Source: Acidisarcina polymorpha (GTDB lineage: Bacteria > Acidobacteriota > Terriglobia > Terriglobales > Acidobacteriaceae). From it: a stretch of 64,000 bases of DNA. The DNA is taken from positions 1,798,001 through 1,862,000 of the forward strand of contig NZ_CP030840.1 in NCBI RefSeq assembly GCF_003330725.1, given 5' to 3'. Positions within the stretch are counted from its first letter, which is position 1, and every line of letters starts with the position of its first letter. Made by a program: the position numbers and the translations under genes. Shown in pieces: positions 7,115-50,157 of this stretch. A model generated the notes under the pieces. It made no database searches and was not told where the DNA came from. It worked only from the letters and a program-made list of their open reading frames with translations.

Positions 7115-7205
7115 TCGTTTTCCAACTCCGAATCTGGATTCGCCGCCGGTTCGTGCTCTCGGCGGATTGCAACTATTTCAAAGTAAAAGGACATCCCAAG
7201 GGACC

Positions 7206-8024
7206 ATGTTCATTCGTTTGGGTTATGACATTCAGTTCGATGTGCCCGCGCCGCTGGCTTTTGTTGCGCAATTGCACGTCCATCCGTCGCGCACCGCTGA
7301 CCTTCGCGAGCCGGATGCCGTGCATCTGGATGATGACATCGTCTCTACCGTCTATAGTGACAGCTTTGGCAATATTTGCACACGGTTTCTCGCTCCGGCC
7401 GGGCACTTGCGGATGTGGAATTCCACCCTGATCGAGGATCCCGGACTCCCCGATCCCATCGCTCCGAATGCCCGCGAAATCCCAACCTCGGAGCTGCCGA
7501 ACGAGGTATTACGCTTTCTGCTGAGTAGCCGCTACTGCGAAGTCGACCTGCTCTCGCCGATCGCCGTCGAACTCTTTGGCAACATCAGGCCCGGCTGGGA
7601 GCGAGTTCAGGCTATCGTTGAATGGGTTAACCGCAAGGTGACCTTCGGCTACCAGTACGCCCGCCCCACCAAAACTGCCCTCGACGTCTATACCGAACGG
7701 CTTGGCGTGTGCCGCGACTTCCAGCACCTCGCGGTGACTTTCTGTCGATGCCTCAATATTCCTGCACGCTACGTCGCCGGCTATCTCGGCGACATCGGCG
7801 TCCCCCCCTCAGGCACCCCCATGGACTTTAGCGCCTGGTTCGAAGCCTATCTCGACGGTCAGTGGTGGACCTTCGACGCCCGCCACAACAAACCCCGCAT
7901 CGGACGCGTCCTCATGGCCACCGGGCGCGACGCTGCCGATGTCGCCTTCCTTACCTCGTTCGGAAGTTCCACACTGACCAAGTTTGAAGTAATCTCCGAC
8001 GAAGTCCCACCACCCGGAAGCTAA
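7206..8024 (+). CDS. Transglutaminase-like protein, Anbu-associated type
   Basis: A cytoplasmic protein of 272 residues with an N-terminal beta domain (MFIRLGYDIQF) and a transglutaminase core. Cys169 lies in GVCRDFQHLAV and Asp224 in WWTFDARHN. Where the catalytic His of the canonical core is expected (xAWxE) the sequence reads MDFSAWFEAY, giving Ser209. It is most likely a protease-like or amide-processing enzyme acting with the divergent Anbu peptidase; the reaction is unknown. I chose ATG 7206 over an in-frame TTG at 7167 because related proteins begin at this point. Confidence 0.85.
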   Translation: MFIRLGYDIQFDVPAPLAFVAQLHVHPSRTADLREPDAVHLDDDIVSTVYSDSFGNICTRFLAPAGHLRMWNSTLIEDPGLPDPIAPNAREIPTSELPNEVLRFLLSSRYCEVDLLSPIAVELFGNIRPGWERVQAIVEWVNRKVTFGYQYARPTKTALDVYTERLGVCRDFQHLAVTFCRCLNIPARYVAGYLGDIGVPPSGTPMDFSAWFEAYLDGQWWTFDARHNKPRIGRVLMATGRDAADVAFLTSFGSSTLTKFEVISDEVPPPGS

Positions 8025-43591: not shown

Positions 43592-44668
43592 GTGCCGAGC
43601 CAGCAAGAAGTTCAGTGGTCGCAACTTAAAGTCGGTGTGCTGGTTCTGGTCGCACTGGCCGTACTTATTGCCCTCGTCTTCCTGATGTCCGGCAGCACCG
43701 GTGGCCTGTTCACCGGCAAGCTGACGGTCCGCTCCTACTTTGAGAACTCCGCCGGGCTGAAAGTGGGCGCTCCGGTCAACCTCGAGGGCGTGACTATCGG
43801 GAATGTGAAGTCGATCCGCATCGTCCCCGACCGTAAGCTGACTCCCGTGGAAATCACAATGAAGCTGAGCAAGCAGTATCAGGTCGGTCTGCACACAGAT
43901 TCAAAGGCCAGTCTCGAGACCGTGGGCGTGCTGGGTGACACGGTGATTGACATCAGCAGCAAGGTCGCTACCGGCCCTCAACTTCAAGACAACAGCGAAC
44001 TTCAGACGACCGAAACCCCAAATCTCAGCGACGTCATCAAATCCAGCCAGGGGACCATCGAACAACTGAATACCATCCTCTCCAAGGTCGACAATCTCGC
44101 CGATTCCCTTAACAGCGGCAAAGGCTCGATCGGCAAGCTGATCCAGGACCCCGAACTCTACAATCGAGCCAACGACGCCGTTCAGCAGATTCAGAAGCTG
44201 GTCGATGAGATCGGCAGCGGCAAGGGTTCGATTGGCAAGTTGATCGCCGACGACACTCTTTACACGCGCGCCAACGAGACCGTAGGCCGCTTGCAGCACA
44301 TCGCCGACCAACTCGACAATGGCCAAGGGACGGTCGGCAAGTTGTTGAAGGATGAGACCCTCTACAACAACATCAATAAATCCGCCGCCGGCGCCCGCCA
44401 ATTGCTCGACGACGTCAACGCCGGACGCGGCGGTCTCGGCTTGATCGCCAAAGACCCCGCATTCGCCCAGAAGCTGAATGACACAGTCACCAAGCTCGAC
44501 TCGATTCTGGCTCGTGCCGACAATGGCGAAGGCACCATCGGCCAGTTGGTCCGCAATCCTTCGGTGTACAACAACGTCGACCAGATGCTGACCGAGTCTC
44601 GTGGCCTGATAGCTGCCATTCGCGAGAATCCCAAGAAATACCTCACGTTCCACGTCAAAGTTTTCTGA
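43592..44668 (+). CDS. MCE/MlaD-family lipid-transport protein, orphan
   Basis: A 358-residue envelope protein. One N-terminal membrane helix (LKVGVLVLVALAVLIALVFLM) is followed by one MCE domain (about 40-125, SAGLKVGAPVNLEGVTIGNVKSIRI) that binds lipids in Mla-like systems. Residues from about 170 to 340 hold five imperfect repeats of about 35 residues. Each begins near G(K/Q/E)G(S/T)(I/V)GKL and continues (D/N)..LY....., so this is a helical C-terminal shaft. The start is GTG with GGGGGAG upstream. No MlaE or MlaF gene is nearby, unlike typical operons. Confidence 0.88.
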   Translation: MPSQQEVQWSQLKVGVLVLVALAVLIALVFLMSGSTGGLFTGKLTVRSYFENSAGLKVGAPVNLEGVTIGNVKSIRIVPDRKLTPVEITMKLSKQYQVGLHTDSKASLETVGVLGDTVIDISSKVATGPQLQDNSELQTTETPNLSDVIKSSQGTIEQLNTILSKVDNLADSLNSGKGSIGKLIQDPELYNRANDAVQQIQKLVDEIGSGKGSIGKLIADDTLYTRANETVGRLQHIADQLDNGQGTVGKLLKDETLYNNINKSAAGARQLLDDVNAGRGGLGLIAKDPAFAQKLNDTVTKLDSILARADNGEGTIGQLVRNPSVYNNVDQMLTESRGLIAAIRENPKKYLTFHVKVF

Positions 44669-44711
44669 ACCATTTAACTTCCGGTACCTGCCAGGCCGTC
44701 AGTCCGTTCGT

Positions 44712-44733
44712 GGCTTTTCCCCCAGGAAAAGCC
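44712..44733 (+). terminator. Hairpin after the MCE gene
   Basis: GGCTTTTCC (44712-44720) and GGAAAAGCC (44725-44733) form a perfect nine-base-pair stem with a CCCA loop, 44 bases after the stop. No T-tract follows. Confidence 0.5.
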
Positions 44734-44913
44734 GCACCTCGCAACTCCCGGTTGTACGACGGAAGGCGAGAATGCTCTGAAATCCCGGGCAGGAACCAAG
44801 GAGCCCTGAACTGCGTAGGCTTCTTGTGTTATTTTTCGGAGCAGGTGCAAGATTGCTCGAGCATCCGTCGCAGTACGCTCCCCCGCAGCAAAGCGCCGCA
44901 CTCACAGGAGCTT

Positions 44914-47019
44914 ATGCATACAAATCGTCTCGCCGTCATCCTCCTTCTTGCCACAGCTGCAGCATTTGCACAAAGTCCAGTTGCTGCCCCGCCGCTTCTC
45001 AATCCCGAGAGGCCGGTGGATACACCCGGCGATGCCGCCACCCCGAAAGAGCCGAAGGCCCCCCATAGCTTCGACCTGAGCGCAATCGACAAGACTGCCG
45101 ATCCGTGCAAAAACTTCTATGCATACGCCTGCGGTAATTGGCGCAAGAACAACCCCATCCCGAGCGATCAAGTGCGCTGGGGGCGTTTTAATGAGCTGGC
45201 CGAGCGCAACCGCTACCTGCTCTACACCGAGTTGCTGAAAGCCAGTCAGCCAAGTCCCGATCGCACACCCCTGCAGCAACAATATGGCGATTTCTTCGCT
45301 GCGTGCATGAACACCACTCTGGCGGATGAAAAGGGCGACCAGCCGGTGCTTCCGGTGCTCGAAACGGTCAACAGCCTGCAAGATAAACAGCAGCTCGCGT
45401 CGCTGGTCGCCACCTTGCAGAGTAAGGATGGCGTTCCAGTCTTCTTGAACATCGGCTCCGAACAAGACGCCAAGGATTCGACCAAGCAGATCGCCGGCGC
45501 CTACCAGGGTGGACTTACTCTGCCCGACCGCGACTACTACCTCGAGACTGACGCGCGGATGGTCAAGATTCGCGAACAATATACTGCGTATCTGGTGAGC
45601 ATCTTCAAACTGATCGGCGATTCCGACGACAAAGCGGCTGCCGAAGCAAAGAGTGTGCTCGATCTCGAAACGGCTCTGGCCAAGGGCTCGGTCCCTCGGG
45701 TTGAATTGCGGGACCCGCAAAAGGTCTATCACCCGATGCCCATCTCAGGATTGAAGGCACTCTCGCCGGACTTCAACTGGGATTCGTATTTTTCCGGAAT
45801 CAACGAGTCTTCCTTGACCAGTCTGAACGTCGGAACGCCCGATTACTTCAAGGCAATGAACCAGGTACTGGCGTCGAGCAGTCTCGATGAAATTAAGAGC
45901 TATCTCCGCTTCCACGTAGCCAACAATGACTCGCCCTGGCTGTCTAAGCCCTTCGTCGACGCTCACTTCAACTTCTTCAACAAGCAGCTCCAGGGACAGG
46001 ACAGCCCTACTCCTCAATGGAAGCGCTGCACAACACTGACCGACCGCGCACTGGGAGAGGCCGTTGGCCAGGATTGGGTCAAGCAATACTTCCCTCCTAC
46101 CGCCAAGGACAGCATGGAGAAACTGGTCGATGCGCTGGACAAAGCTCTTGGTGAAGATATCCAGTCGCTGACCTGGATGAGTGATGCAACCAAGAAGCAG
46201 GCCGAACTGAAGCTTAGCCAATTCCGCCGCAAGATTGGCTATCCGGAGAAATGGCGCGACTACTCCAGCCTGAAAGTGGAACGCGACGATCTGATCGGCA
46301 ATCTTCGCCGCTCGGCTGCTTATGAGTTTGCCTACGATCTGAACAAGATCGGCAAGCCGGTGGATGAAAAGGAATGGGGGATGACGCCGCCCACGGTGAA
46401 TGCCTACTACGATCCACCCATGAACGACATTAACTTCCCGGCGGGGATCTTACAGCCGCCGTTCTTCGACCCGGACAAAGACCCCGCCGTTAATTTTGGG
46501 GCAATCGGCGTCGTCATTGGCCATGAAATGACCCACGGCTTCGATGATGAAGGAAGCCAATATGATGGCAAGGGCAACCTGCGCGAGTGGTACACCCCGG
46601 AGGATCGGAAGCAGTTCGTCGCCAAGACCGACTGCGAGGTCACCGAATATAACAACTTCGAGTCTGTCCCGGGAGCCAAGCTGAATGGCAAGCTCACTCT
46701 GGGCGAAAATACCGCCGATAACGGCGGCCTTCGCATCGCCTATCAAGCGCTGATGAGCACCCTTGCCGCGGAAGGCCCCGCAGCCAGCCAACCCGTCGAC
46801 GGCTACACCCCCGCTCAGCGGTACTTCATCTCGTTCGCGCAAGTCTGGTGCACCAATCAGACGGACCAGTCAGCCAGAGTGATGGTCAAGACCGACCCTC
46901 ATTCCCCCGGCGAATGGCGCACCAACGGCTCGGTGCAGAACTTTGACGAGTTTGGCAAAGCCTTCGGCTGCAAGAAAGGCGATCCGATGATGCCGCAGAA
47001 CTCCTGCCGTGTCTGGTAA
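44914..47019 (+). CDS. M13-family (neprilysin-like) zinc metallopeptidase, exported
   Basis: A 701-residue exported oligopeptidase. A signal peptide ends near AAAFAQS. The N-terminal Peptidase_M13_N begins with FDLSAIDKTADPCKNFYAYACGNWRK. The catalytic domain has VIGHEMTHGFDDEGSQYDGKGN (His537, Glu538, His541) and the third ligand Glu598 in ENTADNGGL. It ends with CKKGDPMMPQNSCRVW, the typical M13 C-terminus. All zinc ligands are intact. ATG 44914 follows AGGAG closely; the frame extends 68 codons upstream but that part lacks signal-peptide character. Confidence 0.95.
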   Translation: MHTNRLAVILLLATAAAFAQSPVAAPPLLNPERPVDTPGDAATPKEPKAPHSFDLSAIDKTADPCKNFYAYACGNWRKNNPIPSDQVRWGRFNELAERNRYLLYTELLKASQPSPDRTPLQQQYGDFFAACMNTTLADEKGDQPVLPVLETVNSLQDKQQLASLVATLQSKDGVPVFLNIGSEQDAKDSTKQIAGAYQGGLTLPDRDYYLETDARMVKIREQYTAYLVSIFKLIGDSDDKAAAEAKSVLDLETALAKGSVPRVELRDPQKVYHPMPISGLKALSPDFNWDSYFSGINESSLTSLNVGTPDYFKAMNQVLASSSLDEIKSYLRFHVANNDSPWLSKPFVDAHFNFFNKQLQGQDSPTPQWKRCTTLTDRALGEAVGQDWVKQYFPPTAKDSMEKLVDALDKALGEDIQSLTWMSDATKKQAELKLSQFRRKIGYPEKWRDYSSLKVERDDLIGNLRRSAAYEFAYDLNKIGKPVDEKEWGMTPPTVNAYYDPPMNDINFPAGILQPPFFDPDKDPAVNFGAIGVVIGHEMTHGFDDEGSQYDGKGNLREWYTPEDRKQFVAKTDCEVTEYNNFESVPGAKLNGKLTLGENTADNGGLRIAYQALMSTLAAEGPAASQPVDGYTPAQRYFISFAQVWCTNQTDQSARVMVKTDPHSPGEWRTNGSVQNFDEFGKAFGCKKGDPMMPQNSCRVW

Positions 47020-47162
47020 AACTGCGGCAAACCACGGATGTCCCGGGGCCGATTGAAGGCCCTGGGGCCCACAGCCATCTCTTTATGCGTACTATCAAGG
47101 ATAGGGTTCTTTGTATTTAATCGTCGGACTCGGCTCACGCCGCCGCGAAGTGCCCGTCAAAC

Positions 47163-47296
47163 TAGCCGAAAGCCGCTCCACCTTTTACAATTCAGCTTAG
47201 TGTTCGGCAAGGGAGCGATCCTGAGCCATCCCGAAACAGCCCGCTGCAGAGCAGCCTCCGCGTCAGCTATCGTCTGGCACGGGACGAAGGAAGCGC
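47163..47296 (+). promoter_or_regulatory. Conserved promoter and structured leader of beta-propeller gene 1
   Basis: The block CTAGCCGAAAGC-N8-CTTTTACAATTCA at 47162-47194 contains -10 box TACAAT (47186-47191). The leader holds GGGA (47211), TCCCG (47229-47233), a GCTGC/GCAGC stem (47243-47247 with 47251-47255) and CGGGA (47280-47284), which abuts the AAGGA ribosome binding site. TCCCG can pair with either GGGA or CGGGA. The same parts recur before the second gene at 48749-48859. Confidence 0.5.
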
Positions 47297-48670
47297 ATGA
47301 AGTTCAGGAAAGTCGGTCAGGTTCTTCTGGCCCTAGTTGTGTCTGTTGGTCTCGGTATTGGAGTAACTTCGTGCAGCAACAGTTTCACCGTTGGCTACCT
47401 GTACGTCACCGGCTCGCAATATAACCAGATCTCCGGTTTTAACATCAACAACGAGACCGGCAAGCTCACCCCTGTCAAAAAGTCGCCTTTCGGCTCCAAC
47501 GGGACAAATCCAGTCCGTGCGTTGGTGCTCTCCGGCGGTCGCTTCCTCTACGTCCTCAATCAGGGCACTTTTACCTATAACAGCGACGGCACGACGACGG
47601 GCACTGCCAGCAACGTTTCACTCTTTCAAATCGGTGGAGATGGCACCCTTACCTTTCAGGCCAGCTACGCCTCCCAGGGAAACAACTCGCTGTCGATCCT
47701 CACCGACACCAGCGGATCTCACCTGTATGTCCTGGACAATTACGGGACTTTCAACACCGGTGGCAGCGGAGGGTTGCTTCCCATCAATTCAACCACGACG
47801 CAGACGGCGAATACGCCTTGTCTCAACGCCGCGGATGGAAGATATTACCCCACCGGTGATATCAGCGCATATCAAATTGATCCGACTACCGGACGTCTCT
47901 CGCTGATTACCAACCAGCAGGTCGGCAATCCGACCGGACCCGGTCAGCTTACCTATTTTCCGATTGGCTGCTTCCCTACCGAGTTCAAGCTGGTGGGCGG
48001 CTTTATCTTTACCATTCAGCAGGGCAGCACCAGCAACAACGATGTGCAGAGCGTCTTCTCCTACTCGCAGAGCACGACCAATGGGCAATTGACCTTGACC
48101 CAGAACGCGCCGCTGCAGACCAATGCTGCGCACCTCACTTACATCAACAGCGATCCGACCGGCAAGTATGTCTACCTGCTCGATGCCGGGCCGGTTGCCT
48201 GTATGGACACAAACGGAGTTTCGGCCCCCACCCAGATATTGCCTTATACGGTAACTACGGGCGGGACCCTGGCGACGCTGAGCACCGGCAACATCTGCAA
48301 TGACCCTACGGCCGTCGGTCCCTCCCTTCTCATTACCGACAGCAAAACCAAGTTCCTCTATGTCGCCAATAGCGGGAACACCTCGATGACTCAGCCATTC
48401 AGCGAGATCTCGGCGTTCACTATCGACCCGACCTCGGGCAGGCTCCAGTTCATCGCCGGTGAACCATTCAAGAATGTCGGCTCCGGACCCCGGTGCATGT
48501 TGGAGGATCCTTCGAACCAATTCATCTATACCGCCGGCTTCAATGACAGTACGGTCGTCGGCAATATCATCGATACCAATGCCGGTGTCCTTAACCCGCT
48601 TCGCGTCGCGACCAGCTACCCAACCGTGGGTAATCCAACCTGGTGCGCCGCCAGCGGCCGTACCCAGTAA
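47297..48670 (+). CDS. Beta-propeller (YVTN/6-phosphogluconolactonase-like) lipoprotein 1
   Basis: A 457-residue exported lipoprotein. A signal peptide with lipobox VTSC (Cys26) precedes a propeller built of blades with the pattern (F/Y)LYV...(G)..: VGYLYVTGSQYNQISGFNI, GGRFLYVLNQG, GSHLYVLDNYG, KFLYVANSGNTSM, NQFIYTAGF. Such YVTN/lactonase-like propellers usually bind ligands or proteins at the surface; enzymatic lactonase activity is not shown by any motif here. It is followed 190 bases on by a paralogue with the same N-terminus (MKFRK) and leader, which suggests a tandem duplication. Confidence 0.85.
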   Translation: MKFRKVGQVLLALVVSVGLGIGVTSCSNSFTVGYLYVTGSQYNQISGFNINNETGKLTPVKKSPFGSNGTNPVRALVLSGGRFLYVLNQGTFTYNSDGTTTGTASNVSLFQIGGDGTLTFQASYASQGNNSLSILTDTSGSHLYVLDNYGTFNTGGSGGLLPINSTTTQTANTPCLNAADGRYYPTGDISAYQIDPTTGRLSLITNQQVGNPTGPGQLTYFPIGCFPTEFKLVGGFIFTIQQGSTSNNDVQSVFSYSQSTTNGQLTLTQNAPLQTNAAHLTYINSDPTGKYVYLLDAGPVACMDTNGVSAPTQILPYTVTTGGTLATLSTGNICNDPTAVGPSLLITDSKTKFLYVANSGNTSMTQPFSEISAFTIDPTSGRLQFIAGEPFKNVGSGPRCMLEDPSNQFIYTAGFNDSTVVGNIIDTNAGVLNPLRVATSYPTVGNPTWCAASGRTQ

Positions 48671-48692
48671 CAGCCAAGAAGGATTTGCCTCA

Positions 48693-48718
48693 CACGGCCC
48701 GCATGTAAGCGGGCCGTG
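48693..48718 (+). terminator. Terminator hairpin between the beta-propeller genes
   Basis: CACGGCCCGC (48693-48702) and GCGGGCCGTG (48709-48718) form a perfect ten-base-pair stem around ATGTAA, 23 bases after the stop. It separates the two transcripts, so the second gene must have its own promoter. Confidence 0.7.
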
Positions 48719-48748
48719 CCTTATCTAGACGATTCGACGACACCTGGC

Positions 48749-48859
48749 TAGCCGAAAGCTCTTTGAGCTTTTACAATTCAACCTGGGAGTAATCCCGAAA
48801 TAGTTCCGCTGCAACGGCAGCCCCGCTCCAGCACTGGTGGTCCGGGACGAAGGAAGCGC
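48749..48859 (+). promoter_or_regulatory. Conserved promoter and structured leader of beta-propeller gene 2
   Basis: The same CTAGCCGAAAGC-N8-CTTTTACAATTCA block lies at 48748-48780 with TACAAT at 48772-48777, at identical spacing. The leader has GGGA (48785-48788), TCCCG (48793-48797), GCTGC/GCAGC (48808-48812 with 48817-48821, loop AACG) and CGGGA (48843-48847). The sequence from CGGGA to 17 bases into the gene is identical to that of the first gene. Confidence 0.5.
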
Positions 48860-50104
48860 ATGAAGTTCAGGAAATTCGGGCGGGCCTCGCTGGCCGCTGT
48901 TGTGTCCCTTGGTATGGCGGCAGGGATCTCCGCATGTGGTGTCAGCAACACGATCGATTACGTCTTCGTCACCAATTCCAAAAATAATCCGGGACAGATC
49001 AACGTCTACTACGCGGATTCGGAATCCGGCGCCTTGACCCAGATTCCCGACTCTCCCTATATGACGTCCTATAGGAATCCCGTGGCTCTGGTGACGTCAC
49101 CCAATTTCAAGAACCTGTATGTAATCTTCCACGATGACAACACCATCGTTCAGTACAGTATCGGCACCGACGCGAAGCTCTATCCGCAGCATACCTACAA
49201 CACGCCCGGTACTTTTCCGAACGCCGTCGCCATCAACACCGCTGGAACATTGCTCTTCGTCACCGACACCTATCAGCCGCAATACACCGCTGCGAACCCA
49301 GGCCCTGGGGCGGTGATCGTTTATCCGATCAATACCGACGGCAGCCTTGGCGCTCCTGTCGCCAACGGCAATCTTTCGTACTACCCATTGAGCACTACAT
49401 TGACCAACGTTTTGAATCCAGTCGCGGTCAATTCGCTCACCCAGAATCCCGTAAATGCAACCTCGCCCGGCGCGTCTTATATCTACGTTGCGAATGCGAA
49501 CGCTTCGACCGGCCTGGGAAGCATCTCGGCGTTTGGCGTCGGTTCCGGCGGCGCGCTAACTCCGATAGCGGGCCCGCAATCCGATGGTACTTTCGCCGCT
49601 GGCACGACGCCCAGTGCCATCGCCAGCACGCCACGCGGACTCTTCCTCTACGTAACCGATAGCGCGAACAATCAGCTCATCAGTTATACAGTGCAGTCCT
49701 CTGGTGCAATTATTCCTTCTCAGAATGGTCCCACCCGCACCGATGTCTTTCCGGATGCCATCACCATCGACCCCCGAGGCCAGTTCATCTACGTCGCCAA
49801 TTACACCGGCAACGACATCAGTGCCTATACGATCAATGTCTCTACCGGGTATCCCACGGGAGTGGCTGCAGCCGGCACCTACGGGGTCGGGACCGGCCCC
49901 ACCTGCGTCTTTGTCGAGCCGGCGCTGGGCCGCTACGTCTACACCACCAACTTCCTCGATAACACCGTCTCCGGATTGCACCTCGATCCGAATGCCGGAA
50001 CTCTGACCACGGTACAGAACACTCCGTTCGTCGCCGCCGGGCAGCCGACGTGCATTGCAGCGACACCGCACGGCAATCACGCTATCTCCACACCAACAAC
50101 TTAA
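48860..50104 (+). CDS. Beta-propeller (YVTN/lactonase-like) lipoprotein 2
   Basis: A 414-residue exported lipoprotein with lipobox ISAC (Cys26). The propeller blades are visible as IDYVFVTNSKN, FKNLYVIFHDDNT, ASYIYVANANAS, GLFLYVTDSANNQLISYTV, GQFIYVANYTGNDISAYTI and GRYVYTTNFLDNTVSGLHL. It is homologous to the gene just upstream, but most of the coding sequence differs strongly, while the first 17 bases and the whole leader are shared. Its cellular role is unknown; attachment to the outer membrane is likely. It is closed by a strong terminator. Confidence 0.86.
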   Translation: MKFRKFGRASLAAVVSLGMAAGISACGVSNTIDYVFVTNSKNNPGQINVYYADSESGALTQIPDSPYMTSYRNPVALVTSPNFKNLYVIFHDDNTIVQYSIGTDAKLYPQHTYNTPGTFPNAVAINTAGTLLFVTDTYQPQYTAANPGPGAVIVYPINTDGSLGAPVANGNLSYYPLSTTLTNVLNPVAVNSLTQNPVNATSPGASYIYVANANASTGLGSISAFGVGSGGALTPIAGPQSDGTFAAGTTPSAIASTPRGLFLYVTDSANNQLISYTVQSSGAIIPSQNGPTRTDVFPDAITIDPRGQFIYVANYTGNDISAYTINVSTGYPTGVAAAGTYGVGTGPTCVFVEPALGRYVYTTNFLDNTVSGLHLDPNAGTLTTVQNTPFVAAGQPTCIAATPHGNHAISTPTT

Positions 50105-50122: not shown

Positions 50123-50157
50123 AAAAGCCCTCGCGCTGCGTCAGCGCGAGGGCTTTT
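50123..50157 (+). terminator. Strong intrinsic terminator
   Basis: A perfect 16-base-pair stem: AAAAGCCCTCGCGCTG (50123-50138) and CAGCGCGAGGGCTTTT (50142-50157) around CGT. The A- and T-tracts make it work on both strands; it also serves the convergent GT2 gene. Confidence 0.9.

Follow-up and report, generated by a model that had tools for sequence, protein, structure and literature searches.

A Structured Leader Ahead of Paralogous Beta-Propeller Lipoprotein Genes in the Acidobacteriaceae

Why do two tandem genes, whose proteins share 30% identity, keep an almost unchanged sequence ahead of and across their start codons? The question is raised by a pair of beta-propeller lipoprotein genes of Acidisarcina polymorpha, located in a window of 64,000 nucleotides (assembly GCF_003330725.1, contig NZ_CP030840.1, positions 1,798,001 to 1,862,000, forward strand); the positions given here are those of the window. 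A preliminary description of this DNA took the leader of both genes for a switch, in which TCCCG would pair either with an upstream GGGA or with CGGGA beside the ribosome binding site, and attributed the shared start region to selection on the RNA or to gene conversion. As judged from comparison of sequences, the leader is a real, family-wide structured element with two hairpins and a constrained start region, and the switch pairing is not conserved.

Both putative promoter blocks read CTAGCCGAAAGC-N8-CTTTTACAATTCA, as read from the sequence and checked by script, and within the genome of the window a match with up to three mismatches is confined to these two sites. A consensus promoter scan, which requires a better -35 element, reported neither -10 block. 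Downstream, GGGA, TCCCG, a GCTGC/GCAGC stem with the loop AGA in copy 1 and AACG in copy 2, and CGGGA beside AAGGA follow in the same order in both leaders, just as had been described. The distance from TACAAT to ATCCCG is longer by 22 bases in copy 1, where the GGGA hairpin is closed by TCCT and not by TCCCG. The identical run between the copies is indeed 32 bases long; however, 17 of these bases precede the ATG and 15 lie in the gene, counted from the first base of the ATG, instead of 17 reaching into the gene.

Spread of the leader

BLAST with the leader of copy 2 returned tandem copies in many genomes of the family. We used a sequence-only leader model built from 41 of 82 family leaders picked by eye, 39 of the 41 coming from genomes with BLAST-found copies, and scanned the family at E <= 0.001 with at most eight first-look candidates scored per genome. 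The model matches 213 of 398 family genomes and 26 of 79 genera, including two matches in the genome of the window, so that the expected presence of the leader ahead of such genes elsewhere was borne out. It also matched 119 of 200 genomes sampled from the order and 16 of 199 sampled from the phylum, and every matching genome belongs to the same family. This family is apparently the Acidobacteriaceae, where NCBI places Paracidobacterium acidisoli, one of the named relatives with leader records next to Acidobacterium sp. S8 and Acidipila sp. EB88. Many of the genomes are closely related, so the counts are not numbers of independent events.

Applied to 1.2 Mb from 100 fetched loci, the model gave 169 hits at the same threshold, 166 of which precede a propeller gene of the same family (blastp), while the other three lie at contig ends with no readable open reading frame (ORF). 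A separate script gathered 193 related genes by a Shine-Dalgarno (SD)-like site, ATGA(A/G)(G/A) and a signal that ends in a lipobox-like motif, having replaced an earlier lipobox filter that dropped many genes of the third-gene clade treated below. A TTTACAAT-like site with at most one mismatch is present in 154 of them, and keeping leaders by this site biases whatever the 154-leader set says of the -10 element. Across 91 loci, the propeller genes number one in 22, two in 53 and three in 16. The middle copies of some arrays (e.g., L089 at position 7956 and L135 at position 7182, gene-strand coordinates) lack a TTTACAAT-like site and have in common, apart from minor differences, ACGAAAGATGCGC ahead of the ATG, which makes a further conserved start region.

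Searches of Rfam at E <= 10 over 47000-49000 of the window left the leader unmatched, the single hit lying inside gene 1 and under its own cut-off, and 10 related loci gave 0 matches. Among the literature matches listed, none dealt with this leader or array. The loose pattern TCCCG-N11-GCTGC, with 52 hits in the genome of the window, is too unspecific to trace the leader.

Family columns favour TTGGCA (48-83% per base), 18 bases and TACAAT. After TACAAT come a hairpin P1, a CCAG-like linker, a hairpin P2 in some leaders, a hairpin P3 a few bases ahead of the SD, and the start block GAAGGAAGCGC-ATG-AAG-TTN-AGN-AAA.

Hairpins, start block and access to the SD

The folding energies of both full leaders, with or without 21 gene bases, do not lie under those of shuffled sequences (z -0.50, 0.60, 0.67 and 0.32), nor do those of shorter leader pieces; hence, the case for structure rests on comparison and not on energy. 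A strong 5' hairpin is found in 98 of the 154 leaders. It begins at most 9 bases past TACAAT in 83 of the 98, at offset 6 in 41, and carries a GNRA loop in 15. The mean 5' hairpin score over the 154 leaders is 10.72, compared with 9.88 ± 0.22 in mononucleotide shuffles, and P1 is mostly of the GGGA/TCCC type.

P1 and P3 were followed in an alignment of 38 of 46 group leaders, eight having been removed by eye before counting and the structure having been drawn from the same leaders; 82.6% of its cells are paired, versus 77.8 ± 0.9 in shuffled alignments and 28-52% (maximum 51.7%) when the arms are slid. The covariation is 0.160; shuffled alignments give 0.099 ± 0.011 (0 of 500 as high) and slid arms no more than 0.076. 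Of the 14 pairs, 9 are changed on both sides, where the shuffled mean is 5.3 and 1 of 500 shuffles is as high. RNAalifold, run on this alignment, returns the same two helices with seven pairs. Over 157 sequences, a few unrelated ORFs among them, P3 arms score 12.57 against the partner arm of their own leader and 11.67 ± 0.22 when arms are exchanged between leaders, with 12.43 as the highest of 300 shuffles. These comparisons argue for both hairpins: P1, close to where the transcript is expected to begin, and P3, just ahead of the SD. In copy 1 of the window, P1 sits approximately 13 bases downstream of where the transcript is expected to start, and P3 is predicted by RNAfold in two forms, TCGTCT/GGACGA (47270-47287) with gene sequence and a stem ending in CGGG without it.

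Hairpins of the shared leader had thus been rightly noticed, P1 being supported across relatives and the GCTGC/GCAGC stem, P2, within the clade of the window. P2, as GCTGC/GC(A/G)GC, was counted in 16 of the 154 leaders, namely the window's clade and a few others. Compensatory changes had been proposed as a test of this stem; in an alignment of 11 sequences it is kept, with 92.7% of cells paired, but its changes are G-U only and no pair is doubly changed.

The codon choice in the start block is strongly biased. We compared the 154 leader genes with codons 2-6 of 257 other ORFs, collected mechanically with unverified starts, and with gene interiors. Lys at codon 2 is AAG in 154 of 154 genes (78% inside genes, 57% in the control ORFs) and Leu at codon 3 is TTG in 42 of 45 (12% and 14%); Arg at codon 4 is AGG in 33 of 42 (5% and 6%) and Lys at codon 5 is AAA in 94 of 101 (22% and 43%). 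Selection on the nucleotide sequence is supported by this bias at synonymous sites. For the gene conversion proposal, 123 of the 193 genes were assigned to paralogue A or B by the better blastp match. The 32-base blocks of A and B differ at 7.16 positions within a genome (63 pairs), 6.93 within a genus (256) and 7.81 between genera (3391), values far lower than the 24 of 32 expected arithmetically for unrelated sequence. Conversion would make the paralogues within a genome agree best, which they do not, so it is not the general cause; the start block owes its invariance to constraint acting on old paralogues and not to gene conversion.

The exclusive folds of TCCCG are not supported across the family. 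The TCCCG:CGGGA pairing, for which compensatory changes had also been proposed as a test, fills 68.4% of cells, which equals the shuffled mean of 68.4%; both parts occur together in 3 of the 154 leaders, two of these being the copies in the window, and RNAfold selects this pairing in neither window copy. The openness of the SD over the 154 leaders is 0.589, versus 0.595 with dinucleotide-shuffled upstream sequence (p = 0.53); the AUG has a small excess of openness over shuffled leaders (0.608 versus 0.556, p = 2e-4). The mean SD pairing probability is 0.44 over 111 leaders.

A second candidate, an anti-SD helix P0 in which TTCC or GYU ahead of P2 pairs with GGAARC, was examined in the 11 sequences of the P2 alignment, where 81.5% of its cells are paired and a single pair is doubly changed. 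P0 and P2 together reach 87.2%, versus 86.4% shuffled, with 166 of 500 shuffles as high. Since the SD openness of the 154 leaders does not make it general either, P0 was dropped as a family feature. RNAfold predicts it in copy 2 and some relatives, and it may yet form in copy 2.

A different arrangement was observed in the third-gene clade (23 leaders, defined by the protein tree), of which the leader model finds no member in the genome of the window. There, a covarying inverted repeat holds the -10 box TACAAT in its loop. Its arms fit their own leader at 16.54, versus 10.89 (standard deviation 0.64) for swapped arms (0 of 300), whereas in six other clades the fit is not exceptional, being equalled in 29 to 276 of 300 shuffles; two further clades were too small for the arm-fit comparison. 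In the alignment of the clade, 67.7% of cells are paired, versus 54.5 ± 2.1 shuffled (0 of 500), and the covariation is 0.321, versus 0.161 ± 0.025 shuffled (0 of 500), slid arms giving no more than 0.159. Changes on both sides affect 8 of 10 pairs, which is common among shuffles too (164 of 500). Because the left arm is located between the -35 and -10 elements, it would be missing from a transcript made from this promoter. The simplest account would be read-through RNA from the preceding gene, or a different transcript start. The arrangement is directly testable.

Readings of the leader

The best explanation, which we advance tentatively as possible rather than established, is a per-gene expression cassette, a promoter and an ompA-like leader for steady, high output of envelope lipoproteins. 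Each gene would carry a sigma-70-like promoter of its own, followed by some 50-100 bases of leader, copied along in duplications and kept across the family. Transcription would start at the foot of P1, the base-paired 5' end would resist 5'-end-dependent decay, P3 would hold upstream sequence away from the SD, and the constrained start region would give strong initiation; the outcome would resemble the action of the ompA 5' untranslated region, with a steady high yield of envelope lipoproteins. The displaced P1 of copy 1 would make the protective step weaker in that copy. According to reviews, a hairpin at the 5' end can make mRNA more stable and hinder RppH (PMC3997798, PMC7509114); PMC7509114 adds that some transcripts without start codons remain stable given a strong SD. 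For this leader, the start site, the protective effect and the high yield are predicted from sequence, and its likeness to that of ompA would be one of function, not of descent.

Several observations weigh against the cassette. P1 is short, at 4-5 base pairs, and, by eye, was not seen in the third-gene clade. The 38 leaders that carry the P1 and P3 statistics were chosen by eye out of 46 and also supplied the structure, and one slid control likewise gives nine doubly changed pairs. The SD is no more open than with shuffled upstream sequence across the 154 leaders; in copy 2, RNAfold pairs it at 0.81, mainly with TTCC 48804-48807, and 90% of the shuffles of this copy have a more open SD. With 21 gene bases included, the best fold of copy 2 swaps P1 for CCCGAA:UUCGGG in codons 6-8, and the centroid retains P1. 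Furthermore, 39 related genes without the -10 block have a similar codon bias (Leu codon 3 TTG in 11 of 13, Lys codon 5 AAA in 15 of 16), so the constraint belongs to the start region, independent of the rest of the leader, and it exceeds what a strong start site usually needs. Because of this excess, the main rival is a regulated leader, in which a protein, a small RNA or a ligand binds the invariant block from the SD to codon 5 together with the adjacent P3 and sets the translation of all copies jointly. We regard it as somewhat unlikely, although it would account for a nucleotide-level constraint that spans the start codon in paralogues of approximately 30% identity, and for a promoter and leader specific to this propeller gene family within what was searched. 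The GGA site of CsrA resembles the two GGA in the start block; however, the gene is absent (PF02599 in 0 of 14 genomes, with 3 of 14 control genomes matched), and CsrA is ruled out as a partner in these 14 genomes. There was no sign of a perfect antisense partner in 41 genomes searched with the 14-mer GGAAGCGCATGAAG, shorter seeds lying outside the search: it occurs in nine genomes, in six at leader copies only and in three (G024, G031, G032) elsewhere, while the reversed control gave 7 hits. The 19-base core, allowed up to three mismatches, occurs in the genome of the window at the two leaders and at three other places with three mismatches each. The leader has no Rfam match, and no conserved unpaired pocket was seen by eye past the CCAG and the SD block. 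A narrower form is more doubtful still: an Acidobacteriaceae-specific cis-regulatory RNA, in which the SD-to-codon-5 block by P3 is recognised by a small RNA or a dedicated RNA-binding protein that doses all the paralogous surface propellers together, the third-gene clade having replaced P1 with the hairpin that spans the -10 box.

It is improbable that the hairpins are incidental and that the conserved parts are promoter and translation-start signals alone. Folding energies that match shuffles would fit this account, as would conserved columns lying mainly in the -10 block and the SD/start block, but P1 and P3 covary, with arms such as CCTCGTC/GACGAGG, and CCCG/CGGG replacing CCTG/CAGG. The two-state switch has very little left in its favour. 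Both of its pairings can be drawn on paper in both window copies, and the SD of copy 2 is predicted to be mostly paired, though with a different partner; that pairing favours some control of the SD in copy 2 alone. Against the switch stand its unconserved pairing, not selected by RNAfold in either copy, and the shuffle-like openness of the SD described above. Equally far-fetched is a recent gene conversion or duplication behind the identical 32 bases: the window blocks differ at 1 of 32 positions in the family comparison, whose register is shifted by two bases, far under the within-genome mean, but blocks one base away from that of copy 2 occur in other genera too, no homogenising is seen within genomes, and P2, P3 and the coding sequences differ between the two copies.

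The locus and comparison with known systems

The features of the locus, with examples from the third-gene clade, are collected in Table 1.

Table 1. Positions of the leader elements and genes; the last row refers to related loci, all others to the window.
Feature	Position	Strand	Remarks
Putative promoter block, copy 1	47162..47194	+	-10 TACAAT 47186-47191; weak -35-like TAGCCG 47163-47168
Putative promoter block, copy 2	48748..48780	+	-10 TACAAT 48772-48777
Predicted P1 hairpin, copy 1	47211..47222	+	GGGA-GCGA-TCCT, GNRA loop, within a longer GGC..GCC stem; RNAfold and P1 pairing in relatives
Predicted P1 hairpin, copy 2	48785..48796	+	GGGA-GTAA-TCCC, GNRA loop, at the expected transcript 5' end; RNAfold and P1 pairing in relatives
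Predicted P2 hairpin, copy 1	47243..47255	+	GCTGC-AGA-GCAGC; RNAfold; kept in the window's clade without double change
Predicted P2 hairpin, copy 2	48808..48821	+	GCTGC-AACG-GCAGC; RNAfold; kept in the window's clade without double change
Predicted P3 region, copy 1, adjoining SD	47258..47287	+	RNAfold; place of P3 conserved in relatives
Predicted P3 hairpin, copy 2, adjoining SD	48822..48846	+	CCCG...CGGG and short inner stem; RNAfold; P3 covaries in relatives
TTCC, copy 2	48804..48807	+	Possible partner of SD GGAA (48852-48855), closing a three-way junction; RNAfold
Invariant initiation block, copy 1	47280..47311	+	SD AAGGAA 47287-47292, spacer, ATG, codons 2-5
Invariant initiation block, copy 2	48843..48874	+	SD AAGGAA 48850-48855, spacer, ATG, codons 2-5
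Lipoprotein beta-propeller gene 1	47297..48670	+	457 amino acids; Pfam Lactonase PF10282, E 3.9e-20; lipoprotein called by eye from signal-like start
Lipoprotein beta-propeller gene 2	48860..50104	+	414 amino acids; Pfam Lactonase PF10282, E 1.3e-25; lipoprotein called by eye
Peptidase M13 gene, 5' of the propeller array	44710..47019	+	Pfam M13
-10-straddling hairpin, third-gene clade examples	L065:10719-10766; L078:1333-1380; L082:5535-5582 (-); L098:9513-9560		

The identification of both genes as tandem beta-propeller lipoproteins is supported by PF10282 (Lactonase, a 7-bladed beta-propeller), which scores 72.8 bits for gene 1 and 90.7 for gene 2, above the Pfam gathering score of 21.7, and by lipoprotein starts recognised by eye. 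As for 6-phosphogluconolactonase, the NCBIfam model NF008258 gives 34.7 and 65.7, far under its cut-off of 370. The M13 peptidase gene lies on the same strand at most 1.5 kb ahead of the first propeller copy in 67 of 91 related loci, and an MlaD-type gene, at 43592 in the window, is matched in 58 of the 91; these kept neighbours suggest that 43592-50104 forms a conserved envelope gene cluster. On the 3' side of gene 1, a perfect 10-bp hairpin, CACGGCCCGC-ATGTAA-GCGGGCCGTG (48693-48718), without a real T run by eye, was not reported by the terminator scan and may be an end point of gene 1 transcripts. On the 3' side of gene 2, the same scan reported a terminator-like 16-bp hairpin with a T-rich tail (50123-50157).

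The ompA-type 5' untranslated region carries a hairpin at or near its 5' end, a second hairpin and then a strong SD, ahead of an envelope protein gene, and in its predicted layout the leader is alike. It differs in its unrelated sequence, its short P1, the position of P3 directly by the SD and the long invariant block reaching into codon 5; its function would be comparable by analogy. The 5'-terminal stem-loop that marks the ompA type may have its counterpart in P1, which is conserved near the expected start but is displaced in copy 1 and missing from the best fold of copy 2 with gene sequence. With riboswitches and translational switches, the leader shares a structured region ahead of the gene and a hairpin by the SD; however, no conserved alternative pairing, aptamer-like core or Rfam match was found for it, and of the exclusive pairings that would control the SD, the one proposed in the preliminary description is not conserved and P0 does not exceed shuffles in the window's clade. 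Like the Acido-1 and Acido-Lenti-1 RNAs (RF01686, RF01687), the leader is a structured RNA motif of Acidobacteria; PMC2864571 gives those two as probably not cis-regulatory, and the leader, unlike them, matches no Rfam family.

To these systems, the present comparison adds a structured leader without Rfam match, widespread in a large family of soil bacteria and tied to one family of surface lipoproteins, and it separates the parts supported by comparison, two hairpins and a constrained start region, from the unsupported switch. With one to three paralogous leaders per locus, these arrays offer natural series in which the effects of 5' hairpins and of the start-region sequence on expression could be tested.

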